From: Variovorax sp. EL159 | Lineage (GTDB): Bacteria; Pseudomonadota; Gammaproteobacteria; Burkholderiales; Burkholderiaceae_C | Direction: 5' to 3' | Assembly: GCF_900100965.1 (NCBI RefSeq) | Contig: NZ_FMUJ01000002.1 | Location: forward strand, 865,869 to 929,868 | Length of the DNA: 64,000 nt | Shown here: one piece after another, positions 18,701 to 59,993 of the stretch | Numbering within the stretch: position 1 is the first letter of the stretch | How the letters are laid out: each line of letters begins with the position of its first letter | The notes under the pieces: model-generated | Database searches by the model: none | Seen by the model: only the letters and a program-made list of their open reading frames with translations | What the model was told of the DNA's origin: nothing | Made by a program: the position numbers and the translations under genes

Positions 18701-18729
18701 TTGACACTTAAACATTTTATAAATAAAGT
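18701..18729 (+). promoter_or_regulatory. Sigma70-like promoter before the alpha/beta hydrolase
   Basis: A consensus -35 TTGACA (18701-18706) and a -10-like TAAAGT (18724-18729) are separated by exactly 17 bases, in the most AT-rich patch of this part of the window, about 100 bases before the hydrolase ATG. Confidence 0.55.
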
Positions 18730-18826
18730 AACATCGCCGCGAGAGTTTCGTGTGCGGCTTTCAGTGGCATCACCTTCAACGCACTCGTTCAACCAGCGCG
18801 CCGGAGCGCGCATTCAGGAGTTGCAA

Positions 18827-19603
18827 ATGTCAATGCTCAAGTTCGCAAAGCTCTTCACTGTCGCTATCGGCGCAGCAGCCATCGCCGTGGGTGCAGCCGC
18901 GGCGCCGGCAAAGCCGGGCATCGTTCTCGTGCACGGTGGTTTCGTCGACGGGTCCGGCTGGGAAGGTGTCCACAAGATCCTGACGAAGGACGGCTACGCG
19001 GTCACCGTCGTCCAGAACCCGACGATCTCTTTGGCCGACGATGTCGCAGTCACCAAGCGCGCGATCGCTGCCCAGCAGGGCCCGGTCGTTCTCGTCGGCC
19101 ACTCGTATGGCGGCGCAGTCATCACCGAGGCAGGCAACGACGAGAAGGTGGCGGGTCTTGTCTACATCGCCGCGTTCGCGCCCGACAAGGGCGAGTCGGT
19201 CGAGTCGTTGATCAAGAACCCGGTGCCCGGCGCGCCGGTGCCGCCGATTCTTCCGCCGCAAGATGGCTTCCTGTTGCTCGACAAGACCAAGTTCGCCGAC
19301 TCATTCGCAGCAGATGTGAAGCGCGAAACGGCCATCTTCATGGCCAACTCGCAGGTGCCATGGGGCGTTGCTGCCCTGGGCGGAGCGGTCGGCGAGCCGG
19401 CGTGGAAGTCGAAGCCGAGCTGGTACCTCGTGGCCAAGAACGACAGGATGATCCCGCCGCCGGCCCAGCGAAGCATGTCCAAGCGCGCGGGTGCCACCGT
19501 CGCGGAAACACCTGGCAGCCACGCCGTCTATGTATCGAATCCCAAGGCCGTTGCCGCATTGATCGAACAGGCCGCCGCCAAGGTGTCCGTCGCCGCCAAG
19601 TGA
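18827..19603 (+). CDS. Exported alpha/beta hydrolase
   Basis: A 258-residue protein with a signal peptide (MSMLKFAKLFTVAIGAAAIA, cleavage near AAA) and an alpha/beta hydrolase fold. The oxyanion strand is IVLVHGGFVDGSGW, the nucleophile elbow VLVGHSYGGAV carries the Ser, and the catalytic His is likely in PGSHAVYVSNP. The family is the small DUF1749/EstC-like alpha/beta hydrolases related to plant hydroxynitrile lyases. The start is fixed by an AGGAG six bases before the ATG. It is transcribed alone from the upstream sigma70-like promoter. The substrate is unknown. Confidence 0.88.
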   Translation: MSMLKFAKLFTVAIGAAAIAVGAAAAPAKPGIVLVHGGFVDGSGWEGVHKILTKDGYAVTVVQNPTISLADDVAVTKRAIAAQQGPVVLVGHSYGGAVITEAGNDEKVAGLVYIAAFAPDKGESVESLIKNPVPGAPVPPILPPQDGFLLLDKTKFADSFAADVKRETAIFMANSQVPWGVAALGGAVGEPAWKSKPSWYLVAKNDRMIPPPAQRSMSKRAGATVAETPGSHAVYVSNPKAVAALIEQAAAKVSVAAK

Positions 19604-19851
19604 TGGCTGCGACCGCTGCCCGGCGTAGCGCCCCGGGCGGCGCGTTCGATCCAGCAAAGCAACTTCGCCTCTGATCGGGGCCGTCTCAGGCGAAGAGCGT
19701 TCCGACACGGCGCTTGCTCAAAGAGAACGTCCCGGCACACGCCATGCCTCTTCTTGCAGTTGCCTCAGCTGCACAGGCCAACGCCCGGCAACTCAACAAA
19801 GCAAGCCACGCAATCCATACGCAAAAGCTACCGCAGTGCATTCCTGAAAAT
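19604..19851. other. Intergenic region before the MFS importer gene
   Basis: No gene is visible. The right end leads into the conserved element listed next. The left part contains no hairpin with a T-run that I would call a terminator for the hydrolase gene. Confidence 0.5.
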
Positions 19852-19885
19852 GTATTTGTGGATATGGATGGCCACCCCTAGCATC
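19852..19885 (+). promoter_or_regulatory. Regulon element copy 1 (MFS importer promoter)
   Basis: GTATTTGTGGATATG, then 11 bases, then CTAGCATC, ending about 25 bases before the MFS ATG. The same 15-mer pattern, spacing and CTAG box recur before the aldolase operon and the Bug gene, in the same orientation to each gene. The dyad-like 15-mer falls where a -35 box would lie, with TAGCAT as a possible -10. It probably binds the LysR protein of this island; the binding is inferred. Confidence 0.75.
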
Positions 19886-19908
19886 GTCTCGATTCAGGAG
19901 ACACAACG

Positions 19909-21144
19909 ATGCCATCGCTTCCCATGGAATGGGCGAAGACCCCCTCCGGCGCCACCTCGCGCACTGCTCGCTTTTCGATCTTCGTCTGCTTCCTGGTGGC
20001 ACTGATCGATGGCTACGACACGCTGATGCTGTCCTTCGTCGCGCCGTTGATCTCCAGGGAATGGGGCATGCCACCAGGCGCCTTCGGCAAGGTTTTCGCA
20101 GTGAGCTTCGCGGGCGCGGTGGTCGGCGCCATCGCAGTGGGTGCGGCTGCAGACCGCTTCGGCCGCCGCAGGTTGCTGCTGGCATCGCTCTTCTCGGCCG
20201 GCTGCTTCATCGTGTTGAGCGCGTGGTCGAACACGCCCGAGCAGTTGATGCTCTGGCGTTTTCTCTCGGGCATTGGGCTGGGCGGTGCGATTCCCACCAT
20301 CTCCGCGCTGGCGGCCGAGCACGCGCAGCCCGCACAGCGCAGCGCCACGGTGTCGCGCATGTTCCTGGGCTTTCCCATCGGAGCCGTGGCCGGTGGTGCC
20401 ATCACCGCAGCACTGATGCAGCAGGTGGGTTGGCGCGGGATCTTCATCGGCGGTGGCACGCTCGCATTGGCGATGTTGCCGCTGGTTCTGGCGATGTCGG
20501 AAGCCGGGCGCGATCCATCGCGTGGGGATGCAGCGCCGGTCCACGCGAAGCACCCGATTGCCGAACTGGTGGCCGATGGCCGTGGCTTGGGCACGGTGCT
20601 GATCAGCCTCGCGGCTTTCATGATCCTGCTGGTGAGCTACTTCCTTTTGAGCTGGACGCCCAGCGTGCTCGCGATGAGCGGCATGAGCCCTCAACGCTCG
20701 GCATTGGCCGGCGTGATGCTCAATGTGGGCGGCGTGGCCGGTGCCTTCGCCATGTCCTTCGTCGTGGCGCGCCGCAGTCCCTTCGGTCCGGTGGCGATCT
20801 GCCTGGGGCTGGGCGCCTTGCTGGTTCCCTTCTTCGGCTTCCACGGGGTCGGCAGCGAAGTGGCGGCCTTCTGCGTGGTGTTCGCCATTGGCTTGCTGAT
20901 CATCGGCGGGCAGATGAACATCCCCGCGCTGTGCGTGCACTACTACCCGGCGAACGTGCGCGCGACTGGGGTTGGGTTGTCGATGTCGGTCGGCCGCATC
21001 GGTTCCATCGTCGGGCCACTGGTAGGCGGCTTCCTCGTGAGGGCGCAACTGCCGTGGAGCCAGTTGTTCCTGCTCGCAGCCGTTCCCGCGTTGCTCGCGG
21101 CTGCGGCGTTGGGCTGGATCGCGCACCGCACCCGGCGCGCCTGA
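19909..21144 (+). CDS. MFS transporter, aromatic acid:H+ symporter type
   Basis: A 411-residue, 12-helix inner-membrane importer. The loop between helices 1 and 2 (ALIDGYDTLMLSFVAPLI) carries the DGYD motif of the aromatic acid:H+ symporter family (PcaK, BenK, MhpT). The MFS motif A is GAAADRFGRRRLLLA, and RFLSGIGLGGAIPTISALAAE is the matching helix 4 motif. The C-terminal half repeats the fold with ANVRATGVGLSMSVGRIGSI. It probably imports an aromatic or related carboxylate for the aldolase/amidohydrolase pathway, to which it is linked by the shared promoter element. It converges on lysR with 4 bases between stops. Confidence 0.92.
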   Translation: MPSLPMEWAKTPSGATSRTARFSIFVCFLVALIDGYDTLMLSFVAPLISREWGMPPGAFGKVFAVSFAGAVVGAIAVGAAADRFGRRRLLLASLFSAGCFIVLSAWSNTPEQLMLWRFLSGIGLGGAIPTISALAAEHAQPAQRSATVSRMFLGFPIGAVAGGAITAALMQQVGWRGIFIGGGTLALAMLPLVLAMSEAGRDPSRGDAAPVHAKHPIAELVADGRGLGTVLISLAAFMILLVSYFLLSWTPSVLAMSGMSPQRSALAGVMLNVGGVAGAFAMSFVVARRSPFGPVAICLGLGALLVPFFGFHGVGSEVAAFCVVFAIGLLIIGGQMNIPALCVHYYPANVRATGVGLSMSVGRIGSIVGPLVGGFLVRAQLPWSQLFLLAAVPALLAAAALGWIAHRTRRA

Positions 21145-21148
21145 CCGG

Positions 21149-22069
21149 TCAACGCTTCTTGCGGCCTTCTGCCGCGTGGGCCGTCGGCGTGGTGCGCAGC
21201 AAACGCAACAGGCTGTCGAGGTGCGGGTTGGCGTCGGCATCGCGGTAGCCGAGGTAAAGGCTGGACACCGCGTCGTTGTCGAGGATGCGGCTGTACAGCA
21301 CGCCTTCGAGCTGGATGCATTGCGTGTCGCTCGGCACGATGGCCACGCCGAAGCCGGCGGCCACCAGCCCGACCATGGTCGAGGCTTCGCGCGTCTCGTG
21401 CATCACCGAGGGCCGGAAGCCGGCCTTGGCGCACAGCTCCTGCACTTTCCAGTAGAGCCCGATGCCCGCGTCGCGCGGGTAGACGATCAGCGGCACGTCT
21501 TTCAGCTCGCGGATGTAGATACCCTTGCCGCGCGTGAGCACGTGCTGCTGCGGCATGGCCGCGACCAGCGGCGCTGAATACCACTCCTCGATGGTCACGC
21601 CCATGGGAATGCTCACGTTCGGCTTGCGCAGCACGCCCAGGTCGAGTTCCCGTGCGTGGATGGCGTCGAGCTGGTGCATCGACGCCATCTCCTGCAGCCG
21701 AAGCTCGACAGCAGGGTAGCTCGCGCGGTAGTTGCGGATGGCCGCTGGCAGGCCGGCCGTGAGCACCGACGACGCGGTAAAGCCCAGGTTGAGCTTGCCC
21801 ACTTCGCCGGCGGCAGCGCTCTGCACCTCGTCCTTTGCGCTTTGCACCGACGCGAGGATCGTGCGCGCCCGGTCCAGAAAATGCCGCCCCGCCTGCGTGA
21901 GGTACACGCGGCGCTTGTCGCGCTCGAAGAGCTGCACGCCCAGCTCTTCTTCGAGCCCGCGGATCTGCGTGCTCAGCGGCGGCTGCGCCATGTAGAGCCG
22001 CTCGGCCGCACGCGTGAAGTTGAGCTCTTCAGCCACGGCGACGAAGTAGCGCAGGTGTCGAAGTTCCAC
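21149..22069 (-). CDS. LysR-family regulator, probable activator of the catabolic island
   Basis: 306 residues. The N-terminal winged HTH is MELRHLRYFVAVAEELNFTR, followed by PPLSTQIRGLEEELGVQLFE. An effector-binding domain starts near LNLGFTASSVLTAGLPAAIR. The pattern is that of the BenM/CatM-like group, which senses aromatic or muconate-type acids. It is divergent from the aldolase operon (109 bases between starts), with element copy 2 between them, the standard LysR layout. The second, nearly palindromic stretch GATATCTCCTGAGTATC next to its own start may be an autoregulatory site. Confidence 0.92.
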   Translation of the reverse strand: MELRHLRYFVAVAEELNFTRAAERLYMAQPPLSTQIRGLEEELGVQLFERDKRRVYLTQAGRHFLDRARTILASVQSAKDEVQSAAAGEVGKLNLGFTASSVLTAGLPAAIRNYRASYPAVELRLQEMASMHQLDAIHARELDLGVLRKPNVSIPMGVTIEEWYSAPLVAAMPQQHVLTRGKGIYIRELKDVPLIVYPRDAGIGLYWKVQELCAKAGFRPSVMHETREASTMVGLVAAGFGVAIVPSDTQCIQLEGVLYSRILDNDAVSSLYLGYRDADANPHLDSLLRLLRTTPTAHAAEGRKKR

Positions 22070-22104
22070 GATATCTCCTGAGTATCGAATGCAATCCGAA
22101 TCCG

Positions 22105-22138
22105 GTATTTCCGGATATGAGGGCCATTCTCTAGCATC
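22105..22138 (+). promoter_or_regulatory. Regulon element copy 2 (lysR/aldolase divergent promoter)
   Basis: GTATTTCCGGATATG, 11 bases, then CTAGCATC. The 15-mer has near-dyad symmetry (TATTTCC / GGATATG), as LysR recognition sites do. It starts 36 bases from the lysR start and ends about 40 bases before the aldolase start, so one bound regulator could control both directions. Confidence 0.78.
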
Positions 22139-22178
22139 CCCTCACACCTGCACAACCCGAGACAAAGGAAGACCACGA

Positions 22179-23009
22179 ATGGCGCAAGAAACGGCTCCGG
22201 CCGCTGCCGCCGCATCCACCAACCTCGTCGTGAGCCGCCTGCTGCAGCGCCTGCCGGTGGCTGCGTTGGGTATCCGCTGCTCGCGCACGCCGGACATCGC
22301 GCGCATCGCCAGGGCCAGTGGCCACCACGCGATCTGGGTGGACCTGGAGCACAGCAGCATTTCCATCGATGCGGCAGTGCAGATCTGCGCCGCCGCATTC
22401 GACATCGGCCTCATGCCTTTCGTGCGCGTACCCGAGCGCGAATACGGCGTGATCGGCCGGCTGCTCGATGGCGGCGCGGGCGGCATCATCGCGCCGCGCA
22501 TCGAGACCGTGGCCCAGGCCGAAGACCTCGTCGCGGCCTGCCGCTTTCCGCCGCTGGGCCACCGCTCGGCCATCGGCACGCTGCCCCACGTGGGCTATCG
22601 CAAGATGGCCGCGCCGGACTTCAACACAGCCATGAACCAGGCCACGGCGCTGAAGGTGCTGATCGAAAGCCCGCTCGGCATCGAGAACATCGAAGGCATC
22701 GCCGCCGTGCCTGGCATCGACATCGTCGGCATCGGCACGAACGACCTCAGCGCCGAGCTGGGCGTGGCCGGCGACTTCAGGCATCCGCGCGTGCGCGCCG
22801 CACATGACGCCGCGCTGGCCGCCTGCCTGCGCGTGGGCAAGCCGCTCGCCATCGGCGGCATCGCCGATGCGGGCTACGCGGCCGAACTGATGCACCGCGG
22901 CGCCGCGCCGTTCCTCATGACCGGCATCGACACCGACCTCCTGCTGGCCGTCGCGCAAGAGCGCGTGCGGCTGGCGTTTGCTTCCCTCGAAAACACCGAA
23001 CCGAAATGA
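22179..23009 (+). CDS. HpcH/HpaI-type aldolase
   Basis: A class II, metal-dependent pyruvate aldolase fold, 276 residues. Visible are the opening RLPVAALGIRCSRTPDIARI, the WVDLEHSSISIDAAVQ strand with a metal-site glutamate, FVRVPEREYGVIGRLLDGGA, GGIIAPRIETVAQAEDL, and the second metal-site region VGIGTNDLSAELGV. It should cleave a 4-hydroxy-2-oxo acid to pyruvate or oxaloacetate plus an aldehyde; the true substrate is unknown. The start is fixed by AAAGGAAG eight bases upstream. First gene of a four-gene operon; its stop overlaps the next start (ATGA). Confidence 0.9.
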   Translation: MAQETAPAAAAASTNLVVSRLLQRLPVAALGIRCSRTPDIARIARASGHHAIWVDLEHSSISIDAAVQICAAAFDIGLMPFVRVPEREYGVIGRLLDGGAGGIIAPRIETVAQAEDLVAACRFPPLGHRSAIGTLPHVGYRKMAAPDFNTAMNQATALKVLIESPLGIENIEGIAAVPGIDIVGIGTNDLSAELGVAGDFRHPRVRAAHDAALAACLRVGKPLAIGGIADAGYAAELMHRGAAPFLMTGIDTDLLLAVAQERVRLAFASLENTEPK

Positions 23010-23902
23010 CCTCTCCAGAGATCCTCACGTCCAAACCCATGCGCGCAGCCGATACGCTGGCGCGCCCCACCTTCGCCGTGCCCGCGGGCGCCTGCGATGC
23101 CCATGTGCACGTGTTCGAAAGCGAAGACCGCTACCCGCACGTGGACCATCCGCACTACACCTTGCCCGACGGCCCGCTCACCAAGCTCGACGCCATGTGC
23201 GACTCGCTGGGCCTGGCCCGCTACGTGATCGTGCAGCCCAGCTTCTATGGCACCGACAACCGCTGCATGCTCGATGCGCTCGACCGTGCCGGCGAGCGCG
23301 CGCGCGGCGTGGCGATGGTCGAAGAAACCATCACCGAGGCCGCACTGCAGGCCATGCACCGCCGCGGCGTGCGCGCGCTGCGGCTTGACCTGTTCCTGCG
23401 CTCGGGCCTGCCGACCGCCGAGCTGGTGCAGTACATCCAGCGCTGCGTGCGCGCGACGAAGGCGCTCGGCTGGCACCTGCAGTTCTACACACCGGGCTGG
23501 GTGGTTCGCGACTTGATCCCCTACTTGGGGGACATCGAGGCCGACTTCGTCATCGACCACATGGGCTACATGCTCGAAAGCGATGGCCTCACGCGACAGG
23601 ACTTCGACCGGCTGCTGAAGGTGCTGGCCGACGGGCGCGGCTGGATGAAGCTTTCCGGCCCCTACCGCGTGGCCAAGGACGGCAACTACGAAAAGCTGCG
23701 CCCGCTCGCGCATGCCATCGTCGAAGCGCTGCCCCGGCGCACGATCTGGGGCAGCGACTGGCCGCACATTCCCGAAGGCGGGCGCGACACCGGCGAGCTG
23801 TTGAACCTGCTCGCGCATTGGGTGCCCGACGTGCAGGCGCGCCAGCGCATCCTCGTGGACAACCCCGCGCGGCTGTTCGGCTTCGGGCCGGTTTCGCAGT
23901 AA
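23006..23902 (+). CDS. Amidohydrolase related to 2-pyrone-4,6-dicarboxylate lactonase
   Basis: A 298-residue TIM-barrel hydrolase. The metal motif is CDAHVHVFESEDRYPHVDHP (HxH), the second-half His is in ADFVIDHMGYM, and the catalytic Asp is in IWGSDWPHIP. The GSDWPH ending and DAHVHVF beginning are typical of the LigI/PDC-hydrolase branch of amidohydrolase_2. It probably opens a lactone or hydrolyses a carboxylated ring product upstream of the aldolase step. It is translationally coupled to the aldolase gene. Confidence 0.88.
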   Translation: MTSPEILTSKPMRAADTLARPTFAVPAGACDAHVHVFESEDRYPHVDHPHYTLPDGPLTKLDAMCDSLGLARYVIVQPSFYGTDNRCMLDALDRAGERARGVAMVEETITEAALQAMHRRGVRALRLDLFLRSGLPTAELVQYIQRCVRATKALGWHLQFYTPGWVVRDLIPYLGDIEADFVIDHMGYMLESDGLTRQDFDRLLKVLADGRGWMKLSGPYRVAKDGNYEKLRPLAHAIVEALPRRTIWGSDWPHIPEGGRDTGELLNLLAHWVPDVQARQRILVDNPARLFGFGPVSQ

Positions 23903-23909
23903 GGTGCGC

Positions 23910-25028
23910 ATGCACGACACACGGGACACCCCCATGCAGAGCATCCAGGACCTCGACACTTCCGGGGCGCGCGCCACGGAGACCTTCGTTCACGGCGGTA
24001 CGCGCTACCTCGTGATTCCCCAACTGGCCGTCGACGTGCCGGGCCAGCCCGCGATGATCACGGTCGGCGACAGCGATGTCGACGCACTCGTCTACCGCTG
24101 GCAGGGCCAGGGCTTCGTGCCCCATGCGCGCCTGCCCGTGCCGGGCGGCGAAGACGCCGAGTTCTTCGAGATCGACGGCCGTGCCTTCCTGGCCACCGCG
24201 AGCCTGAAATCCGGCACGGGCCCCTACGAGCTGAATGTGCACTCGACGATCTTCGAGCTGAAGGACGGCGCGTTCACCGAGTTCCAGCGCGTGCCCACGT
24301 TCGCGGCCAAGCAGTGGAAGCACTTCGCCATCGGCGAACGGCATTTTCTTGCGCTCGCACAAGGCGTGACGATGGAGGGCAGCGCGCCTCGCCATCCCTC
24401 GAAGTCGGCGATCTACGAATGGAACGGCGAGCGCTTCGCCGAATTCCAGCAAGTCGAATCGGCCTGGGGCTACAACTTCGCGTTCTTCGAGGTCGGCGGG
24501 CAATGCTTCCTGGCGTACGCCGACCACGTGGCGCCTTCGCGCATCCTGCGATGGAACGGCCAGCGCTTCGAAGACTTCCAGCTGCTCGACGGCAAGACCG
24601 GCCGCGCGTTCCAGTTCTTCGAGGCCGAAGGCCACGCATGGCTCGCCTTCGCCTGCCTGCACGACAACACCGTGCTGCTGCGATGGGACGGCAGCCGCTT
24701 CGTTGCGCACCAGACGCTCAGCGGCCCCGGCGGCCGCGAGTTCGCGTGGCATGAAGACGCGAACGGCGGCGAGCTGATCCAGGTCAACTTCCTGCTTGGC
24801 AGCCGCGAGGCACCCATCACCGCGCTGACCTCGGTCGGCTATCGCTTCATCAATGGCCGGCTGATGCCGCAGCGTGAGTTCCCGACCTTCGGCGGCACCG
24901 ATGCCTGCGTCTTCGACGAAGGTGGGCAGCGCTACCTCGTGGTGGCCAACAGCCTTGGCGCCGACATCCGCTTTCGCACACCCAGCAAGGTGTATCGCCT
25001 CGAAGGGGCCACAGGAGCCAGGCCATGA
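23910..25028 (+). CDS. EPTP/EAR-repeat seven-bladed beta-propeller protein
   Basis: A 372-residue protein without a signal peptide, made almost entirely of about 45-residue EPTP repeats. Their cores are YRWQGQGFVPHARLP, FELKDGAFTEFQRVP, YEWNGERFAEFQQV, LRWNGQRFEDFQLL, LRWDGSRFVAHQTL and YRFINGRLMPQREFP, plus a closing YRLEG. Each is followed by a FF/FAFFE strand and an LA/VA-type strand (DAEFFEIDGRAFLATAS). With the N-terminal strand (GGTRYLVIP) closing the ring, seven blades are expected, as in LGI1. EPTP domains are mostly known from animals; here the gene is locked in a catabolic operon, overlapping the next gene by ATGA. A binding or scaffolding role is possible, or enzymatic use of a propeller. 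Start alternatives are a GTG two codons earlier and an ATG eight codons later. Confidence 0.8.
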   Translation: MHDTRDTPMQSIQDLDTSGARATETFVHGGTRYLVIPQLAVDVPGQPAMITVGDSDVDALVYRWQGQGFVPHARLPVPGGEDAEFFEIDGRAFLATASLKSGTGPYELNVHSTIFELKDGAFTEFQRVPTFAAKQWKHFAIGERHFLALAQGVTMEGSAPRHPSKSAIYEWNGERFAEFQQVESAWGYNFAFFEVGGQCFLAYADHVAPSRILRWNGQRFEDFQLLDGKTGRAFQFFEAEGHAWLAFACLHDNTVLLRWDGSRFVAHQTLSGPGGREFAWHEDANGGELIQVNFLLGSREAPITALTSVGYRFINGRLMPQREFPTFGGTDACVFDEGGQRYLVVANSLGADIRFRTPSKVYRLEGATGARP

Positions 25029-26212
25029 CGAATCCGAATTTCCAGAGCCCCGAGTTCATCCGCCTGTTCGAGACCTACACCGCGAGCGCCGACAGCATCG
25101 GCGTGAAGCTGGCGCGTGCCACGGCCGAGGCCGCACCCGATGGGCCATTGATCGTTGCGACCGCGGCGGACTTCATCCTCTTTCCCGGCCGCGGCCGTCC
25201 ACCCGAGGTCGAGGGCTACCGGCTCACGACGCGTGGCTTCAAGGAGCTGGCGGCCGTGTCGCACTTCGGGCCTGCGCTGGCCTCGCTGGTGCGGCTGCGC
25301 GAGATCGATCCGCAAGGCTCGTTGTGGCGCACCGAGGCCGAACGCCTGCTGGCCAGCACCGTGGCCGCGCGCGAGGCCAACAGCGTGGCCCTGTGGCGCG
25401 ACGAGATTGCAGTGCCGGCCTATCGCGGCCGCGAAGTGGCCATCGCGAACATGGTGCACTACGCCTGCGAACTGACCGAGCGCTGCATCCATCGCGCGCT
25501 CGCCGCGCCTCACACCTTCACCGCCGACGACTTGCGCACGCACTGCCTCGAAGCCACGGGCAGCGAAGCCGGCGCCACCGTGCCGATGAACAAGGTGATG
25601 ATCGCGACTTTCTTCCTCGTGGGGCTGGACACCGGGCACCGCGTCATCGGCTGGTTCGACCGGCACGACATCGACTGGGCCAATGCCATGGTGCTGATCG
25701 TCGGCAGGCAAGGCCGACCGACGGCGGGCGTGACCTGGAGCACCAACGCGGTCTGCTCGATGATCCTGGCCGCGTCGCGCCATGCGCTTCCGCTGGAGCG
25801 CGTGTACATCGCGCCGCATGCGCAGGCGCCGACCTTCACCTATCCCGTCGAGACGGAGGCGGTGGCGGCCCACGAGATGCCGATGCGCAAGCTGTGGTGG
25901 TCCACGCGTGCGATGAGCGACCTGGGGCCGATGATGTACGAGGGCTATCCGCGCTTCGCCCCTGGGCGCGGCAGCCGGCCCGTGCTGCAGCCCGACACCA
26001 CCGAGGTCAGCGAGATGCCCGCGATCGGCGGCCCGGAAGACTGGCGCGCCTTCAACACCCGCATGCGCGTGATCCTGGAAGACCCGCGCCAGTTGCTGGC
26101 GGGTTGCGTGACCGACTATGCGGCCGACCAGCTGCAGGCCAATGGCAACGATCCGCGCAAGGCCGTCGTGCCCGGCCTCGACGGCACCGACTACCCCGCG
26201 TACTTTTCCTGA
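25025..26212 (+). CDS. Protein of unknown function at the end of the aldolase operon (possibly DUF5624)
   Basis: A 395-residue soluble protein. I do not recognise catalytic motifs with certainty; a DUF5624 assignment is a memory-based guess. Visible features are LIVATAADFILFPGRGRPP near the N-terminus, a central MNKVMIATFFLVGLDTGHRV, and MVLIVGRQGRPTAGVTWSTN. The C-terminus holds many aromatics (LWWSTRAMSDLGPMMYEGYP) and ends in GTDYPAYFS. It is conserved enough in codon use to be a real gene, overlaps the EPTP gene by four bases, and is the last gene before a strong hairpin, so it belongs to the same pathway. Confidence 0.75.
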   Translation: MTNPNFQSPEFIRLFETYTASADSIGVKLARATAEAAPDGPLIVATAADFILFPGRGRPPEVEGYRLTTRGFKELAAVSHFGPALASLVRLREIDPQGSLWRTEAERLLASTVAAREANSVALWRDEIAVPAYRGREVAIANMVHYACELTERCIHRALAAPHTFTADDLRTHCLEATGSEAGATVPMNKVMIATFFLVGLDTGHRVIGWFDRHDIDWANAMVLIVGRQGRPTAGVTWSTNAVCSMILAASRHALPLERVYIAPHAQAPTFTYPVETEAVAAHEMPMRKLWWSTRAMSDLGPMMYEGYPRFAPGRGSRPVLQPDTTEVSEMPAIGGPEDWRAFNTRMRVILEDPRQLLAGCVTDYAADQLQANGNDPRKAVVPGLDGTDYPAYFS

Positions 26213-26223
26213 TATTTCTTTCG

Positions 26224-26252
26224 AAGGCCGGGTGCGCAAGGCACCCGGCCTT
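26224..26252. terminator. Hairpin between the aldolase operon and the porin gene
   Basis: A 12-bp perfect stem (AAGGCCGGGTGC / GCACCCGGCCTT) with a five-base loop between convergent stops. There is no long T-run on either side (TTCGAAAG on minus), so it may act as a weak bidirectional terminator or protect RNA ends. Confidence 0.6.
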
Positions 26253-26278
26253 GCCGGGCTCTGCCGAGGGCCCCGGCC

Positions 26279-27301
26279 TCAGAAGTTGTGCGAGATGCCA
26301 AGCTGGAAGCCGCGCGAATTCCCTCCCGGCTGCGGCTCCTTCAGCGCATCGCTCACTATGTAGGCGGCATTGCCCCGGTTGCGGATCTTCGACCAGGTGG
26401 TGTAGAGCGCCGTGCGCTTGCTGAGCCAGTGGACGTAGCCGATGGCCAGTTGGGTCGCGTCATCGGCGTCCACGCCCGGCCCCGAGCGATTCGAGCGCGC
26501 GACCGACGCCTTGATCACCCCCGCGCCCACTGGCACGCTGGCGCCCAGCATCACGTTGGTCTGCTTGTCCTGCGGGGCCTTCTGCATCAGGTAGTTCGCA
26601 TACAGCTTGACGAGGCCGAAGTCGTAGCTGCCCCCGAGGCTCGCGGTGCGGTAGTGATGGTGGTCTTCGAGGGGCGTCTGCCCGTAGCTGGCCGCGATGT
26701 CCAGCGGGCCCGATGCATAGCCCAGCCGCGCGCCGTAGTACTTCGTTCCTTTCTGGCCTTCTGGCATCGAGACCATGAACTGCCCGTAGATGCCGCCCAG
26801 GTTGCGCGGCAGGAAGTAGCCGACCGAGTTGTTGGCCCGCACCAGCGTCTTGGCGCCACCGAGCCCGAAGGGCCAGCCCTCGACGATGTTGCTGGAGCCG
26901 CCGACGCCCACGGTGCCGAAGGGAGAGAACTGCGAGATGTTCCAGAAGCTGGGCGTGTAGTCGCGGCCCAGCCGAAGCTCGCCGAAGCTGTTGTGCGAGA
27001 GGCTCAGGGTGGAGCGCCGTTGCCAGCCGACCCCTTGGTACTGGCCGGTGTCGGGCAAGGTCGCCGACTCGAGCCAGAAGCTCGCGGCCAGGCCGCCGCC
27101 GAGGTCTTCGGTGCCGCGAAACCCCAGGCGGCTCGGGAAGATGTTGCCGCCCTGGTCCATGGACGTGACCGAGCGGTTGCCGGACTTCGCGGATGTGATG
27201 TTGAGGTCGACCGTGCCGAAGATCGACACGGTGGACTGCGCGAGCGCATGGCCGTTCAGGCCGATGCAGCCCGCGGCGATCAAGAGGGTGGGGCGGATCA
27301 T
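26279..27301 (-). CDS. Gram-negative outer-membrane porin
   Basis: A 340-residue porin of the betaproteobacterial OmpC-like (porin_4) family. Signal peptide MIRPTLLIAAGCIGLNGHALAQ, then the canonical first strand STVSIFGTVDLNI. Other signs are LGFRGTEDLGGGLAASFWLE, RRSTLSLSHNSFGELRLGRD (loop 3 start), the alternating amphipathic strands, and the terminal phenylalanine (GFQLGISHNF) needed for outer-membrane insertion. It lies 180 bases downstream of the Bug gene on the same strand without its own copy of the regulon element, so it is probably cotranscribed as the uptake channel. Confidence 0.93.
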   Translation of the reverse strand: MIRPTLLIAAGCIGLNGHALAQSTVSIFGTVDLNITSAKSGNRSVTSMDQGGNIFPSRLGFRGTEDLGGGLAASFWLESATLPDTGQYQGVGWQRRSTLSLSHNSFGELRLGRDYTPSFWNISQFSPFGTVGVGGSSNIVEGWPFGLGGAKTLVRANNSVGYFLPRNLGGIYGQFMVSMPEGQKGTKYYGARLGYASGPLDIAASYGQTPLEDHHHYRTASLGGSYDFGLVKLYANYLMQKAPQDKQTNVMLGASVPVGAGVIKASVARSNRSGPGVDADDATQLAIGYVHWLSKRTALYTTWSKIRNRGNAAYIVSDALKEPQPGGNSRGFQLGISHNF

Positions 27302-27481
27302 GGTTCTTGTCTCCTGGTTGTAGAAATGAAAAATGACGTGCACCGCCCCGCACCCCATGCGCTCTGCAGGGGCGGGTGTGCGTGACGGCAAGGGGTGGCG
27401 AAGGGCGCGCAAGCGTGCGAAGGCGCGCGGCGCTCTCAGGCAGCAGCAGACATGCAGTGGTGGCGGGCGCGCGGCCCGCCG

Positions 27482-28453
27482 TCAGTCAAGGCGCAAGCCC
27501 TTGGCCTTGATGAGCCGGCCCATGGTCTGGGCCTCGCGTTCGATGATGGCGCGGGTGTCGGCGGTGTTCGTCGACATCGGCTCCAGCCCGGCATCGGCGA
27601 TCTGCCGCGTCATCTCGGGCGAGCGCGTGGCCGTGGTGATCGCGCGGTTCAACTGCTCGACGATGGCATCGGGCGTGCGCGCGGGCACCCAGAAGCCGAG
27701 CCAGGTCGACACCTCGAAGCCGGGATAGCGCTCGGCAACGGTCGGCACGTCGGGCAACGCGGTGCTGCGCTGGCTGCCCGTGTACGCCAGGGCCTTCACC
27801 CGGCCGGCCTTGATGTTCGGCAGCGCCGAGATCGGGGGCTCGAAGCCCAGCATCACCTGGCCGCCGATCACGTCGGGCATGGCGCCCTGCTTGTAGGGCA
27901 CGTGCAGCATCTCGACCGACGCGGCTTCCTGCAGCAGCTCGAAACCCAGGTGCGAGGTGCTGCCGGAGCCATAGGACGCGAAGCTCACGTGGCCCGGCCG
28001 GCGCTTGGCCAGCGCGATCAGTTCGTCGGTGTTGCGCGCCGGCACCGCGTTGTTCGCCACGATGAACGAGCCGCCCTTGAGCGCCTGCGTCACCGGCACC
28101 AGGTCTTCCTTCGGGTTGTAGGGAAGCCGGGAGAGAAGAAACGGCGTCATCGTGAACGGATTGCTCGTCGAGAACAGCACGGTGTAGCCGTCGGGCGTGG
28201 CCTTGGCCACGGCATCGGTGCCGATGGTGGCCAGCGCGCCCGGCCTGTTCTCCACGATCACGGGCACCTTCAGCAGGCGAGAGAGCTGCTCCGCGTAGCT
28301 GCGCGCGAAGATGTCGGAGCCGACGCCGGCGGGCGTGGGCGTCACGATCTTGATGGTTCGCTGGGGCCAGGGCGCGCTCTGTGCGAACGCGGTGCCCATG
28401 GTGCAGTGCAGGCCCGCCGCCCACACCAGCACCAGCGTGGTGATCCTCTTCAT
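27482..28453 (-). CDS. Bug/TctC-family periplasmic substrate-binding protein
   Basis: A 323-residue periplasmic binding protein of the tripartite tricarboxylate transporter type. A signal peptide ends at AFAQ. The mature start WPQRTIKIVTPTPAGVGSDIFAR is the hallmark Bug strand-loop, followed by VPVIVENRPGALATIGTDAV, FASYGSGSTSHLGFELLQ and MLHVPYKQGAMPDVIGGQV. Bug proteins in Burkholderiales bind carboxylates; no TctA/TctB membrane partners are here, so it is an orphan receptor, as most are. A clear AGGAG precedes the ATG, and element copy 3 lies upstream. Confidence 0.93.
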   Translation of the reverse strand: MKRITTLVLVWAAGLHCTMGTAFAQSAPWPQRTIKIVTPTPAGVGSDIFARSYAEQLSRLLKVPVIVENRPGALATIGTDAVAKATPDGYTVLFSTSNPFTMTPFLLSRLPYNPKEDLVPVTQALKGGSFIVANNAVPARNTDELIALAKRRPGHVSFASYGSGSTSHLGFELLQEAASVEMLHVPYKQGAMPDVIGGQVMLGFEPPISALPNIKAGRVKALAYTGSQRSTALPDVPTVAERYPGFEVSTWLGFWVPARTPDAIVEQLNRAITTATRSPEMTRQIADAGLEPMSTNTADTRAIIEREAQTMGRLIKAKGLRLD

Positions 28454-28481
28454 ATGTCTCGTCTCCTGATAGTTGTGGGCG

Positions 28482-28515
28482 CATCCTAGGGAGACAAAGC
28501 CATATCTGGAAATAC
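28482..28515 (-). promoter_or_regulatory. Regulon element copy 3 (Bug/porin promoter)
   Basis: Read on the minus strand: GTATTTCCAGATATG, 11 bases, then CTAGGATG, about 30 bases before the Bug start. It matches copies 1 and 2 at 12 of 15 core positions, with the same spacing and gene-relative orientation. Confidence 0.75.
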
Positions 28516-28657
28516 TCATTCGAGATGCTTTTTTATACCTTCCTCGTATTGAACGAAGGCTTTCTGCATCTGGATGAATGCCCATGTGACGGCAGAACCG
28601 GCAGGTTCGGCGGGCGTACCGGCGTGGCGTCGTGGCCGTGCAGGGGCTTCTTTTCGC

Positions 28658-29281
28658 CTACGCCTTGCGTGCTTTCGCGGGCTTGACGTCGAGTCCCGAG
28701 ATGCCGTTCACGAAGAGCTGGGTGACGATGGGCACCATCTGCTCGTAGGTGAAACGCCCCTCGGGCCGGAACCAGGTGAACATCCAGTTGAGCATGCCGA
28801 AGAGGAACATCGTCAGCAGCTTGTGAAGCTGCGAGTCGTGCAGGTCGGGCCGCGTGGCGGCGATGGCATCGGCGAACACCTGCACCACCGTGCGTTCCTT
28901 GTCGAGCACGCGCGCCTGCGCATCCGGTGCGAGGAAGCGCACGTCTTCGGTGAGCACGCGGTGCTCGCTCTGCGCCTCCGCGTACTCGAGCATGAACGCT
29001 TCGATCAGCTCTGGCAGCCGCTGTTCGGGTGCCAGGTCCAGGGCCTCCACGCCCGTCACGATGTCGACCAGCCGCGAGACATGGCCGTCGGCGATGTGAA
29101 GCAGCACCTCGGCCTTGTCCTTGAAGTGGTGGTACAGGCCGGGCTTGGACAGATGGCTGGCTTCGGCGATCTCGTTCATCGACGTTGCCGCATAGCCCCT
29201 GCGGGCAAACAGCTCGGCGGCGGCCTTGGCGATCAGGCTGCGCTGGTCGCCCGCGCGGGAAGAGGGGGATTCAACAGTCAT
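28658..29281 (-). CDS. TetR-family transcriptional regulator
   Basis: 207 residues. The N-terminal HTH LIAKAAAELFARRGYAATSM and MNEIAEASHLSKPGLYHHFK (about residues 15-55) is textbook TetR. The C-terminal ligand domain contains a long helix around LTEDVRFLAPDAQARVLD, resembling regulators of the PksA/AcuR or fatty-acid type. It is divergent from the tannase-family gene, with a perfect 14-base palindrome between them. It is probably a repressor released by an acyl or aromatic ligand. Confidence 0.9.
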   Translation of the reverse strand: MTVESPSSRAGDQRSLIAKAAAELFARRGYAATSMNEIAEASHLSKPGLYHHFKDKAEVLLHIADGHVSRLVDIVTGVEALDLAPEQRLPELIEAFMLEYAEAQSEHRVLTEDVRFLAPDAQARVLDKERTVVQVFADAIAATRPDLHDSQLHKLLTMFLFGMLNWMFTWFRPEGRFTYEQMVPIVTQLFVNGISGLDVKPAKARKA

Positions 29282-29398
29282 AGGTCGGGATGATGGGCCC
29301 TGCGCGAAGCGGCGCGGTCACCGATCTTAGGGGTTAGTCCCGATCCGCCGCCGCTTGCCCGCGTTCGCTCACCTGCGTTAGTCTCGCCCTGCTTTTGA

Positions 29399-29412
29399 AC
29401 CGACCGGTCGGT
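29399..29412. promoter_or_regulatory. TetR operator palindrome
   Basis: ACCGACCGGTCGGT is a perfect 14-base palindrome, continued by a further CGGT half-unit. It lies 118 bases from the tetR start and 86 bases before the tannase-family ATG. ACCGACCGGTCGGT-like sites are well known for TetR proteins of this kind. Confidence 0.75.
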
Positions 29413-29497
29413 CGGTTTGCCGGATCATCCAGGCGATGAAGCAATCAAGCGCGATCCGCCGGATGTCCGGCGCACAACTCAAACATTGGAGACAACC

Positions 29498-31150
29498 ATG
29501 CGCGACGACAAGTGTGTTCCCCGAGCCTTGCTGCCACAGGGCTTGCTGCTGGCCCTGGGCCTGGCCCTGCACGGCTGTGGAGGTGGCGGCAATGGGGCGG
29601 GCGGCCTTCTTCCGATTCCTGCGCCTGCGCCCGCACCGGCCCCCGCGCCTGCGCCAACGCCCCCTGCGCCTCCACCGGCAGGGCCCACGGCCGAGCAGCT
29701 CAAGAACACCTGCAACACGCTCAAGGGCCAGGTCATCGAGGGCGTGACGGTCACGCAGGCCACGCGCTTCGAGGCCAAGGCGCCGATCTACACCTCGGGC
29801 TTCTGCCAGGTGCTCGGCACGCGCGCACCTTTCCTCGACATCGAGATCGACGTGCCGGACAACTGGACAGGGCGCTACTGGCAGCAGGGCGGCGGTGGAT
29901 TCGACGGACGCATCGCCTCGGTGGTGATGACCGATGCGGGCGGCGCCGTGACGGCGGTCAGCCCGGTGCTGGCGCTCAAGGGCGCGGTGTATGCCGCATC
30001 GAACGGCGGCAACCGCGCGAACGTGCCCGCACAGGCCGCACCCGCCGTGTGGGCGAACGGAACCGACGATGGCCGCCAGTCGGCCACCGACTATGCCTAC
30101 GCGGCAGTGGGCACCACGCTGCGTTTCGGGAAGGCGGTCGCCAAGGCCTTCTTCGGCACGACGCCGAATCACAGCTACTTCAACGGCTGTTCCAACGGTG
30201 GCCGCAACGCCTACATCGCCGCGCAGCGCTGGCCGCAGGAGTTCGACGGCATCGTCGCGGGATGCGAGACCATGGACATGGCCGGCCAGACCAGCGCCTG
30301 GCTCCGCGCGGCCTCGCTCACGGGAACGCCCGCCGCATTGAGCCCGGCGCAGACCGGCGCGGCCTATGCGGCGGCGCTGTCCGCATGCGATGCGCTCGAC
30401 GGGGCCACCGACAACCTCATCGGCAATCCGCAGGCTTGCACCTTCGATCCGGCGGTGTTGCAGTGCGGCGTGGCCGGTGCCAGCACCGACCCATCGATCT
30501 GCCTGAGCGCGGCGCAGGTTGGAACGCTGAAGTCGTTCCTGTCGGAGCTCAAGCTCTCGAACGGCAGCACCGTGCTCTCGGGCTATTCGTGGAGCAACGG
30601 GCTCGGCCTCGGATGGGGCGGGCTCGGTGGAGGCTTCGCGCTGCTCGCAAGCGGCGACCCGGCATGGCTCACGCCCGCCAAACAGGCGGGCTTCCAGCTG
30701 GACACCGACTACTACATGCTCGGCACGGGCCTGTCGCGCATCGGTGCCGACCATGACAAGGCGGCCATTGCCAGCTTCGTGGCATCGGGCCGGAAGCTCA
30801 TCTCGTGGCACGACGGCAGCGATGCGCTGCTGTCGCCGAACGACCACTACCGCAACTGGACGACCATGACCGGCATCGCCAAATCGATGGGGCTGGCCGA
30901 CCCGAACAGCGCCACGCGCTTCTTCATCGTGCCCGGTGGCGGACATGGCGCCGGCGGCAGCTTGCAGGAAGTCGATTGGGCGTCAGCCATCATGGGATGG
31001 GTCGAGAACGGCAACGCGCCCACACAGATGAACTACACGATCCTCGGGAGCAGCCCGGCCCGCAACATGCCCGTCTGCCAGTACCCCAAGTACCCCAAGT
31101 ACAACGGGGCGGGCGATGTGAACGCGGCGTCGAGCTACACCTGCACGTGA
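29498..31150 (+). CDS. Tannase/feruloyl esterase family lipoprotein
   Basis: A 550-residue secreted esterase. The N-terminus is a lipoprotein signal (LALGLALHGC, Cys lipidated), followed by a Gly stretch and a PAPAPAP linker to about residue 60. The tannase domain (PF07519) follows. The nucleophile motif is YFNGCSNGGRNAYIAAQRWP (GCSxGGR), the catalytic Asp is likely in SWHDGSDALLSP and the His in VPGGGHGAGG. It should hydrolyse gallate or feruloyl-type esters outside the cytoplasm; PHB-related esters are an alternative for this family. The start follows TTGGAGAC. It is likely controlled by the divergent TetR protein. A short tandem repeat encodes YPKYPK near the end. Confidence 0.88.
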   Translation: MRDDKCVPRALLPQGLLLALGLALHGCGGGGNGAGGLLPIPAPAPAPAPAPAPTPPAPPPAGPTAEQLKNTCNTLKGQVIEGVTVTQATRFEAKAPIYTSGFCQVLGTRAPFLDIEIDVPDNWTGRYWQQGGGGFDGRIASVVMTDAGGAVTAVSPVLALKGAVYAASNGGNRANVPAQAAPAVWANGTDDGRQSATDYAYAAVGTTLRFGKAVAKAFFGTTPNHSYFNGCSNGGRNAYIAAQRWPQEFDGIVAGCETMDMAGQTSAWLRAASLTGTPAALSPAQTGAAYAAALSACDALDGATDNLIGNPQACTFDPAVLQCGVAGASTDPSICLSAAQVGTLKSFLSELKLSNGSTVLSGYSWSNGLGLGWGGLGGGFALLASGDPAWLTPAKQAGFQLDTDYYMLGTGLSRIGADHDKAAIASFVASGRKLISWHDGSDALLSPNDHYRNWTTMTGIAKSMGLADPNSATRFFIVPGGGHGAGGSLQEVDWASAIMGWVENGNAPTQMNYTILGSSPARNMPVCQYPKYPKYNGAGDVNAASSYTCT

Positions 31151-42272: not shown

Positions 42273-43151
42273 TTAGTTGGGCGCGCTGGTGCGCCTTGCG
42301 TGGAGCTCGAGTGGCTTCTCCCACTGCAGTGGTGCGGCTTCGCGGCACACGATGCGCGTGGCGGCCGGGTTTTCCGGCGCGGCGCAGAGGGCCACGAAAT
42401 GCTCTTGTGTCGGCTGCAGTTGCCAGAAGTGCCAGGGCCGCGCGGTGTTATCGCGCGTGCCCGAATCCGCGAGTGCGAATTCGATGCCGCCGTGGTCGTC
42501 CAGCGTGAAGCTGAAGCTGTCCAGCGGTATCTGCAGGCCCATGCCGCGTGCCTTGATGTAGCTTTCTTTCAGCGTCCACAAGTCAAAGAAGCGCGCTGTC
42601 TGGAGAGCTGCGGACAGGGCGCGCAAGGCTTCTGCTTCGACGGGCGAAAAGAAGTGGTCGGCAACGTCGAGCGCCGCATTGCGCTCGATGTTTTCGACAT
42701 CGACGCCCAGCTCGATGTTTCGCGCAAGGGCCAGCACGATGAGCCCATCGGTGTGGCTCAGGTTGAAGTCGAGGCCATGGGTTTCTTCGATGGTGGGCGC
42801 CTCGATGCGAGGGCGCCCGAAAGGGCCTGTGGCAAAGCGCCAGGCGTGCGGCTGCACCGGCGCATAACGCGACAACACCGAACGCACCAGAGCCCGCGTC
42901 AGCAGGTAGCGGTACCGGTCGCTCGCGAAGTGGAAACGGTTTTGCTTCGACAACTCTTCCGGCGTCAGCAACGCGCGGCAGGCCGCATCTTGCGTGGCAT
43001 CGCCGGACTTGCCGTGAAAGCAGAACCAGAGGTGGATGTCGCCCGCAGGCAGTGAAATGAGAGGGGCGGCGCTTGGCATGAAGGAGCCGCAGCGCATGGC
43101 CGCGATCGCAATGTGGAGCGGATGATGACACGGCGCGAAGTGGTCTATCAT
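42273..43151 (-). CDS. 4'-phosphopantetheinyl transferase (Sfp/AcpT type)
   Basis: Transfers phosphopantetheine from CoA to carrier-domain serines. Signatures are GDIHLWFCF, RFATGPFGRPRI, NLSHTDGLIVLALARNIELG (Mg-binding), GVDVENIER, and FFDLWTLKESYIKARGMGLQ (WxxKEAxxK-type). The neighbouring locus has seven carrier domains or more that need it. The start is uncertain: the chosen ATG has GGGGGA in front; ATGs 18 and 24 codons later would give a shorter, more typical N-terminus (MPSAAPLISL). Confidence 0.9.
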   Translation of the reverse strand: MIDHFAPCHHPLHIAIAAMRCGSFMPSAAPLISLPAGDIHLWFCFHGKSGDATQDAACRALLTPEELSKQNRFHFASDRYRYLLTRALVRSVLSRYAPVQPHAWRFATGPFGRPRIEAPTIEETHGLDFNLSHTDGLIVLALARNIELGVDVENIERNAALDVADHFFSPVEAEALRALSAALQTARFFDLWTLKESYIKARGMGLQIPLDSFSFTLDDHGGIEFALADSGTRDNTARPWHFWQLQPTQEHFVALCAAPENPAATRIVCREAAPLQWEKPLELHARRTSAPN

Positions 43152-43304
43152 CGCGGTCCCCCACACACGCGATGCCGGATTCCGCATTTCCAGCGGAACG
43201 CCAGATCCCGTGATTCGCCATGCCGAATTCATCCGGGGGCCTCACATCATTCGTTTGAAAACTGACTCGGAAGGGTCATCAAGATGACTCGAAATCCGCA
43301 TATA

Positions 43305-45589: not shown

Positions 45590-45664
45590 GCGCGCCGCGC
45601 ACGCCAGGTGCCCGAATTTTGAAGCGACGGCGCACTCGGCGCCGTGCGCAAAGGAGTCGACGAC

Positions 45665-46657
45665 ATGAATGAAATGCTCACGCGCTTCGAGCGCAAGGCG
45701 CCGGCCGGGTCCGATCTTCCCGTGTTGATGACGCCCAGCGAGTCCGGCGAAAACCTGCTCTCGGCCGTGGAGCGCCTGCGTCCGCTGATCGAGCAGTCGC
45801 TGCTCGTGACCGGTGGCGTGCTGCTGCGCGGTTTCTCGGTGCCCGGCGTCGAAACCTTCCAGCAGTTCGCCTCGTCGTTCGGCCATCCGCTGCTGAAGTA
45901 CGAGTTTGCTTCCACGCCGCGTTCCGCGGTCTCTGCTTCCACCGGCGCGGGCGTCTACACATCGACCGAATATCCGGCGCACCAGAGCATTCCGCTGCAC
46001 AACGAGCAGGCCTACACGCGCGAGTGGCCGATGAAGATCTGGTTCCACTGCATCACCGCCTCGCCCGAGGGCGGCGAAACACCCATCGCCGACAGCCGCG
46101 CGGTCTACCGGCGCATCCCGGCGCGCATCCGCGAGCTCTTCGAGCCGGGCATTCTCTACGTGCGCAATTTCGGCGAGATGGACGTGCCCTGGCAGAAGGT
46201 CTTCAACACCGAGAGCCGCGCCGAGGTCGAAGCCTTCTGCACCCGCACCGGCATCACCTGGGAGTGGAAGGACGACGACGGCCTGCGCACGCGCCAGCTG
46301 TGCCAGGCCATCGAGACGCACCCGGTCACCGGCGAGCTGGTCTGGTTCAACCAGGCCCACCTGTTTCACATCTCGGCGCGCGAAGCCGAAGAGCGCGAAG
46401 TGCTCGAAGAGCTCTACGGCATCGAGAACGTGCCGCGCAACACCTTCTTTGCCGACGGCTCGACCATCAGCGACGCGATCTTCGCCGAGGTGCGCGAGGC
46501 ACTCGATGCCGAGACTGTGTCCTTCCTCTGGGAAGAGGGCGACGTGCTCATGCTCGACAACATGCTCGTGGCCCACGCGCGATCGCCGTTCAAGGGCCCG
46601 CGCAAGGTGATCGTCGCCATGGCCGAGCCGCACGGCAACCTCGACCGCAGTTTCTGA
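45665..46657 (+). CDS. Fe(II)/2-oxoglutarate dioxygenase, SyrP-like amino-acid hydroxylase
   Basis: A 330-residue TauD/TfdA-fold enzyme. The first metal ligands lie in QSIPLHNEQAYTREWPMKIW (HxE), and the distal His and Arg in VLMLDNMLVAHARSPFKGPR. The SyrP clade hydroxylates the beta carbon of carrier-bound Asp. Beta-hydroxy-aspartate is a usual iron ligand in lipopeptide siderophores of this type, including photoreactive ones. No Asp module is in view, so the substrate module would be to the right. The role is inferred from family and context. Confidence 0.85.
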   Translation: MNEMLTRFERKAPAGSDLPVLMTPSESGENLLSAVERLRPLIEQSLLVTGGVLLRGFSVPGVETFQQFASSFGHPLLKYEFASTPRSAVSASTGAGVYTSTEYPAHQSIPLHNEQAYTREWPMKIWFHCITASPEGGETPIADSRAVYRRIPARIRELFEPGILYVRNFGEMDVPWQKVFNTESRAEVEAFCTRTGITWEWKDDDGLRTRQLCQAIETHPVTGELVWFNQAHLFHISAREAEEREVLEELYGIENVPRNTFFADGSTISDAIFAEVREALDAETVSFLWEEGDVLMLDNMLVAHARSPFKGPRKVIVAMAEPHGNLDRSF

Positions 46658-46679
46658 GCCAGGCACCGGAGTCCACGGA

Positions 46680-51980: not shown

Positions 51981-51982
51981 CC

Positions 51983-56560: not shown

Positions 56561-56643
56561 GCTCCCGTCCGGCCTCTCCGAACGCATCGAACGCCCCGAA
56601 CGGGGCTCGCACCGCAGCACGTGCTGCGAAGGTTATCCAATGA
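56557..56643 (+). CDS. Possible coupling mini-ORF between the PKS and NRPS genes
   Basis: A 28-codon frame whose ATG overlaps the PKS stop (ATGA) and whose stop overlaps the next NRPS start (ATGA). It bridges the whole spacer. The peptide (Ala/Ser/Pro/Asn-rich) has no known fold. It could pass ribosomes across the gap or be chance; the NRPS start also has its own GAAGG. Confidence 0.4.
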
Positions 56644-59600: not shown

Positions 59601-59993
59601 TTGGCGTCGCTGCCGCTCAATGCGAACGGCAAGGTCGACCGCAAGGCGCTGCCCGACCCCGGGCGCGGCGGCAGCAGCGAAGCCGCTCACGAAGCACCCG
59701 AGGGCGACACCGAAGTCGCGCTCGCGGCCATCTGGGCCGAAGTGCTGGGCATCGGGCGTATTGGCCGCAATGACCACTTCTTCGAGCTGGGCGGACATTC
59801 GCTGATGTCGATGCAGGTGGTGGCGCGCGTGCAGGCCGGCCTGCATTCGGACCTTGCGGTCAAGGACATCTTTCAACACCCGGTTCTGAGGGACATGGCC
59901 GCCCTGATCGCCGAAGCGGGCGCGCGCAAGCCGCACGCGCAGTCGCTGCTCGACATCGACGCCTTCATCGACGCCATGGAAGAAACAACCTGA
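56640..59993 (+). CDS. NRPS module C-A(Ser)-T
   Basis: 1117 residues. C domain with the entry motif [13 protein letters not shown] and active-site [11 protein letters not shown] near 184 (Ala where Gly is usual). A domain with [11 protein letters not shown] near 662 and [10 protein letters not shown] near 707. Specificity residues read by position: D-V-W-H-V-S-L-I-D-K, the standard serine code. T domain Ser in [11 protein letters not shown] near 1050. No epimerase or thioesterase, so L-serine is passed on. Being downstream of the PKS, its C domain joins a polyketide acyl donor to serine. The stop overlaps the next start (TGATG). Confidence 0.95.

Follow-up and report, generated by a model that had tools for sequence, protein, structure and literature searches.

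Organization of the operon

The DNA analysed here, a stretch of 64,000 nucleotides from Variovorax sp. EL159 (the window, whose positions are used throughout), belongs to a genome of 7.0 Mb and contains a group of four forward-strand genes that is the subject of this work. The first gene (22179–23009) specifies a class II aldolase of the HpcH/HpaI type, 276 residues long (PF03328), and the second (23006–23902) a 298-residue hydrolase of the Amidohydro_2 family (PF04909) that resembles LigI (PDB 4d8l). They are followed by a gene for a 372-residue protein, predicted to form a seven-bladed beta-propeller, in which the EPTP family model PF03736 matches six stretches (23910–25028), and by a gene for a 395-residue protein of the DUF5624 family (PF18538; 25025–26212). 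An open reading frame (ORF) check of the window placed all four frames where a first-pass annotation, made from the sequence, had located them, and Pfam assigned each product to a family with a score well above the cut-off (bits, with the cut-off in brackets: HpcH_HpaI, 98 (25); Amidohydro_2, 153 (26.4); EPTP, 150.7 (21); DUF5624, 149.6 (25)). The aldolase and amidohydrolase genes overlap by 4 bases, as do the EPTP and DUF5624 genes. The amidohydrolase stop codon is separated from the EPTP start by 7 bases if the ATG at 23910 is used, and by 1 base if translation begins at the GTG at 23904, the start chosen in the first pass, which gives an EPTP protein of 374 residues. The four genes form one coupled operon; no hydratase gene lies within it.

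The operon is flanked by genes for regulation and transport. Divergent from it is a gene for a LysR-type regulator (21149–22069, reverse strand; PF03466 and PF00126), an ortholog of which (61–97% identity) adjoins the aldolase gene in relatives. Beyond this gene lies, on the forward strand, that of a carrier of the major facilitator superfamily (MFS; 19909–21144; PF07690), whose best NCBIfam match was TIGR00895 (aromatic acid/H+ symport) at 252.3 bits, below the cut-off of 418.55; the score against MhpT was also below its cut-off (247 bits against 410). Downstream of the operon, on the reverse strand, are genes for an outer-membrane porin (26279–27412; PF13609) and for a TctC/Bug-type periplasmic binding protein (27482–28585; PF03401). 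In 18 regions fetched from relatives, the porin was in most cases also a neighbour, and the MFS carrier was kept in L027, L028, L029 and L032 only, which are the closest relatives. The first-pass view of the locus as one coupled uptake-and-breakdown unit is supported. Its claim of a dedicated importer stands only in part: the MFS carrier recurs in the four regions named, but no membrane partners were seen here for the TctC protein, and loci of Actinobacteria contain an ABC importer.

Co-occurrence and dissociation of the genes

DUF5624 was found in 18 of 100 genomes of the genus, and EPTP in the same 18. An ortholog of the amidohydrolase, with at least 72% identity, was present in every one of these, which bears out the earlier proposal that the two unusual proteins belong to the system; a further ortholog, with 66% identity, was found in genome G244. 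The probability of such overlaps among 100 genus genomes is ∼1e-19 if kinship is ignored. DUF5624 is rare, being detected in 2 of 200 genomes of the taxonomic family and in 1 of 398 of a phylum sample, the host's own. EPTP was found in two genomes of a phylum sample of the same size, namely the host and G311, a proteobacterial genome in which a giant ORF of 19,352 residues holds 13 EPTP repeat matches (G311:C1:431732-435616; L123–L128, L182). When a sample of 399 genomes of the order was scanned, with at most five candidates scored per genome, other amidohydrolases were no more than 44% identical to that of the operon, which therefore has an amidohydrolase subfamily of its own; the next relatives in the host genome were at 34–38% identity. 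All four genes were found together, in the same order, in 16 of the 18 fetched relatives, and of the two exceptions, L026 is an additional EPTP-DUF5624 copy and L031 a contig of 3.6 kb that ends within EPTP. The four-gene grouping is more than chance.

An alignment-based scan of a genome collection rendered 50 DUF5624 loci, from Variovorax, other Burkholderiales, alphaproteobacterial metagenome-assembled genomes (MAGs) and many Actinobacteria; a scan with a single DUF5624 protein gave none. Some of these loci are also among the 18 fetched regions, so the two sets are not independent. A gene was counted as present when tblastn exceeded fixed bit scores within the sequence retrieved around the locus, up to 8 kb per side; truncated contigs (L053, L074, L089 and L092) thus count as lacking a gene, and L057 was scored EPTP-positive although part of its copy reads on the opposite strand. 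EPTP adjoined DUF5624 in 43 of the 46 loci with at least 1.1 kb of upstream sequence, and in 22 of 45 loci a start codon was available for a 4-base overlap with the EPTP stop. The first pass had asked whether the EPTP and DUF5624 genes occur mostly outside this context, and they do not: aldolase and amidohydrolase accompanied DUF5624 in 30 of the 50 loci (13 betaproteobacterial, 17 actinobacterial). At 12 of the 50, a PcaD-like alpha/beta hydrolase gene came after DUF5624 and replaced those of the aldolase and amidohydrolase. No locus had both hydrolase modules, and eight had neither, four of these being truncated. A YcaC-like hydrolase was encoded at eight loci, six with the PcaD-like hydrolase and two with aldolase and amidohydrolase, and FAD oxidase genes were found in both contexts. 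Accessory genes are therefore common to the two, as if both hydrolase modules served one slot. Transport differed by lineage, with TctC at 14 of the 50 loci and a branched-chain-type ABC binding protein at 16. The Streptomyces operons were also considered as a nicotinate-type NicD/NicF pathway; this idea was dropped, the isochorismatase being YcaC-like and the alpha/beta hydrolase PcaD/esterase-like, all below the equivalog cut-offs.

The two halves of the operon can be found apart. In G244, LysR, aldolase, amidohydrolase and TctC genes are present, and EPTP and DUF5624 were found nowhere in the genome. Streptomyces loci contain EPTP-DUF5624 without aldolase and amidohydrolase; no close amidohydrolase was found elsewhere in nine such genomes, all with the PcaD-like hydrolase: their best match had an E value of 2.1e-54, whereas two ortholog-bearing genomes gave 9.5e-101 and 3.4e-125. 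In genome G696, however, the two modules are both present, at separate loci (L076 and L078). The dissociations seen in G244 and Streptomyces indicate that hydrolase and aldolase are able to function together as two consecutive steps, and that EPTP-DUF5624 is a step separable from them. In each of the two downstream modules the first enzyme is a hydrolase from a family that cleaves lactones or esters, and the pair is therefore placed, with moderate confidence, upstream of the hydrolase. The first-pass suggestion that the last two proteins are the missing catalysts is thus retained only in part, as a probable separable upstream step, but a role as a bridge between hydrolase and aldolase is not supported by G244 or the 12 loci with the PcaD-like enzyme.

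Two MAGs contain additional copies. A Variovorax MAG has a second EPTP-DUF5624 copy with a PcaD-like hydrolase downstream (L026/L057), its EPTP gene lying partly on the opposite strand, which reflects either a rearrangement or an assembly error. Two DUF5624 copies occur on one contig of a Solirubrobacter MAG (L078 and L086), and while EPTP and an ABC importer accompany one of them, the other has no EPTP and lies beside aldolase and amidohydrolase.

Features of the EPTP-DUF5624 pair

In Variovorax sp. Sphag1AA (L088), EPTP and DUF5624 are fused in frame through a short linker, and in one MAG (L055) twin-arginine-like signals, judged by eye, are present at the N-termini of both. Given this fusion, the case of matching export signals and their near-constant adjacency, the two proteins probably act as a complex.

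The EPTP protein was modelled as a seven-bladed propeller (pLDDT 87.3, pTM 0.89), its best fold match being the EPTP domain of LGI1 (5y2z; E value 1.5e-16, and 4.9e-08 by sequence). Each blade has one copy of a motif, located before or at the beginning of its first strand. Of two successive motif positions, the first (A20, E81, K134, Y188, R232, R276 and T330) is invariant in 48 sequences, and so is the second (R21, D82, N189, A233, E277 and D331) except for Q135, present in 47 of the 48. Thus, 13 of the 14 ring positions are invariant, against a mean conservation of 0.54 for the protein. When the whole ring pattern was shifted along the sequence, the mean number of invariant positions was 2.2 and the highest at any other offset 11, in a test that was not blind, the motif having been chosen by eye. 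The first strand of a propeller blade lines the channel, so the ring residues would lie at the channel mouth, and their conservation suggests a binding or active site. In LGI1, Y188 and R276 are kept, whereas N189, R232 and E277 are replaced by A, M and S, respectively, and A233 by V; unlike the LGI1 propeller, in which the polar ring is therefore not kept at N189, R232 and E277, the bacterial EPTP protein looks cytoplasmic and is fused to or paired with DUF5624.

The DUF5624 protein, described in the first pass as an unknown protein, carries a named Pfam domain whose name assigns no function, and has a homologue of solved structure. Its model (pLDDT 77.9) was built from 17 sequences, and PF18538 matches all 17 aligned members. 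The sole clear fold match was 4jx2, lpg1979 of Legionella pneumophila (Z 29.4; 352 aligned residues, 22% identity), which is annotated as a putative secreted protein. Among 54 sequences 37 positions are invariant, including D49, R66, E74, H80, E137, R206, R231, H265, E284 and R288; this set and those used below for the amidohydrolase and the aldolase were limited to proteins of 0.8–1.35 times the length of the corresponding window protein. No catalytic fold was recognised by Foldseek or VIA-align, and the rows pointing to actin, ParM, a sugar kinase or an eRF1-like protein were weak and were not used. No paper on DUF5624, on lpg1979 or on epitempin with Streptomyces was found in the open-access library searched, although reports elsewhere are possible; the EPTP literature found there consisted of LGI1 work and one paper on sponge Thaumarchaeota.

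The amidohydrolase and the aldolase

The best PDB match of the amidohydrolase was LigI (4d8l, 1.2e-39), which scored above a more distant amidohydrolase (4mup). Residues H33, H35, R126, H185, R221 and D251 are invariant in 36 sequences and correspond to H31, H33, R124, H180, R217 and D248 of LigI (4d8l and 4di8; numbering from the sequence alignment), a member of the same fold family. Of these, H31, H33, H180 and D248 are taken here to be the metal/catalytic residues of LigI, and the catalytic residues expected of an Amidohydro_2 enzyme are thus in place; in entries 4dia and 4di8, the position of D248 is occupied by N or A. LigI R183, presumably a substrate-side residue, is replaced by a tyrosine (Y188) in all 36 sequences, and the substrate is therefore probably not 2-pyrone-4,6-dicarboxylate. 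The gene context also differs from that of LigI: its partners here are EPTP and DUF5624, and no oxygenase gene was identified in the interval 18701–29281, which agrees with the first pass, nor one for a ring-cleaving dioxygenase, hydratase or LigK-type aldolase of the lig pathway. The best NCBIfam match was 4-sulfomuconolactone hydrolase (NF042924), with 183.2 bits against a cut-off of 500 (162.1 for the homologue at L077), and the enzyme is not an equivalog of it. Extracts of PMC5632844 describe 4-sulfomuconolactone hydrolase as hydrolysing a lactone in a pathway for aromatic compounds.

The closest PDB relatives of the aldolase were HpaI-like aldolases. Like the class II pyruvate aldolases HpaI, GarL and RhmA it contains PF03328, and H58, R83, E163 and D189, which we take to be the equivalents of the HpaI catalytic residues, are invariant in 34 sequences, as expected for the HpcH/HpaI superfamily. 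Unlike these enzymes, it scores far under the equivalog cut-offs: the HpaI 4-hydroxy-2-oxoheptanedioate aldolase model (TIGR02311) gave 108.1 bits against 368.8, which excludes HpaI itself, the GarL and KDR aldolase models were matched below cut-off, and no NCBIfam equivalog cut-off was reached. The first-pass description of a LigI-like hydrolase with an HpaI-like aldolase therefore holds.

Other genes in the neighbourhood

A secreted-looking alpha/beta hydrolase is encoded at 18701–19603 and recurs near the EPTP loci L035, L045, L085 and L121, which may be coincidence. On the other side, a TetR regulator gene is divergent from one for a protein of the Tannase/feruloyl-esterase family (28658–31150), and the same pair adjoins the operon in L036. 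The tannase-like gene (29417–31150) was left out of the system, a close copy lying beside the operon only in L036 among the 18 regions. Farther downstream, a likely non-ribosomal peptide synthetase (NRPS) cluster of the siderophore type spans 45644–59993, with a TauD-family protein (45644–46657) and NRPS modules (46680–51980 and 56640–59993); a phosphopantetheinyl transferase gene (42273–43232) is likely part of it.

Proposed role of the operon

These observations lead us to propose, tentatively and with slightly less than even confidence, that the operon serves the catabolism of a small cyclic or aromatic-derived carboxylate, with an EPTP-DUF5624 complex acting upstream of hydrolase and aldolase. 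Judging from the protein families, the compound would enter through the porin, the TctC protein and the MFS carrier, under LysR control. EPTP and DUF5624, as one complex, might then carry out a preparatory step yielding a lactone-like carboxylate, probably where the propeller channel opens. The LigI-like amidohydrolase, by its family and its conserved metal/catalytic residues, would open this product hydrolytically, and the HpaI-like aldolase would cleave a 4-hydroxy-2-oxo acid to pyruvate or oxaloacetate and a carbonyl compound. In other bacteria a PcaD-like alpha/beta hydrolase would take the place of the hydrolase-aldolase pair. Aromatic-derived carboxylates are favoured as substrates. Genes near the loci of other bacteria suggest a link with aromatic metabolism: PobA is encoded near 4 of the 50 loci and PcaGH-type proteins (protocatechuate dioxygenase) near 3, a benzoate-dioxygenase-like (ring-hydroxylating) alpha subunit gene is present at L055 and a UbiD decarboxylase gene at L056. 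Extracts of PMC11452294 indicate that TctC-type (Bug) proteins can bind pyridine dicarboxylates.

Several points weigh against this proposal. The position of the conserved ring at the channel mouth comes from the predicted strand order, and since non-bacterial relatives of EPTP, such as LGI1, are binding proteins, binding alone would also conserve such a ring. The adjacent EPTP gene is missing in 3 of the 46 loci (L069, L071 and L078). The PobA and Pca genes occur at few loci and may be independent neighbours, and L121, from Sinorhizobium, adjoins genes of a sugar-acid type (SBD_N kinase, PdxA and Fe-ADH). Tree-distance correlations among the four proteins (0.82–0.95; 0.66–0.93 within Actinobacteria) were computed without an unlinked control gene and are not used as evidence.

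A bolder version of the proposal, which we consider doubtful, is that EPTP and DUF5624 are the two subunits of a previously unknown beta-propeller enzyme. As a lyase or cycloisomerase, it would make or rearrange the lactone-like carboxylate ahead of two exchangeable hydrolase modules. CMLE and virginiamycin B lyase, according to extracts of PMC7081238 and PMC2894822, use a propeller scaffold for lactone-forming or ring-opening chemistry; they share this scaffold with EPTP although the families are unrelated, and by analogy catalysis by the pair is plausible. It is possible, though on balance we think it unlikely, that the pair is instead a sensor, chaperone or substrate-binding accessory, and that amidohydrolase and aldolase perform all the chemistry on an imported lactone. 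This would agree with the pair-less gene set of G244, with the protein-binding role of LGI1-type propellers and with the failure to recognise a catalytic fold in DUF5624; but the pair occurs without these enzymes, next to a different hydrolase, at 12 of the 50 loci, and 37 invariant DUF5624 positions are more enzyme-like than would be expected for a scaffold.

A version that follows the first pass, in which the pair would act as a hydratase or tautomerase after the LigI-like hydrolysis of a substrate of the pyrone dicarboxylate type and before its retro-aldol cleavage, is quite improbable. LigI is indeed the closest solved relative of the amidohydrolase, and the operon lacks a hydratase gene, but the pair and the two enzymes each occur without the other (the 12 PcaD-like loci; G244), and the R183-to-tyrosine replacement has no exception. 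A sugar-acid pathway, with hydrolysis of a 2-keto-3-deoxy-sugar lactone followed by a GarL/RhmA-like cleavage, would account for the sub-threshold GarL and KDR aldolase matches and for the four-carbon-acid kinase, PdxA and Fe-ADH genes at L121, but is equally improbable given the preference of the amidohydrolase for LigI over 4mup, the aromatic-acid MFS and TctC types of carrier, and the aromatic-pathway neighbours at other loci.

While the enzyme families are known, what appears to be new is the pairing of EPTP with DUF5624, the spread of this pair and the use of exchangeable hydrolase modules. The EPTP propeller and DUF5624, families without known bacterial function, thereby gain a defined metabolic context: the same pair lies ahead of unrelated hydrolases of two kinds, across two phyla, and the propeller ring marks specific residues as targets for mutagenesis. 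Were the pair an enzyme, a family otherwise known from the epilepsy protein LGI1 would have its first catalytic member, and EPTP propellers would no longer be known as binding proteins only.

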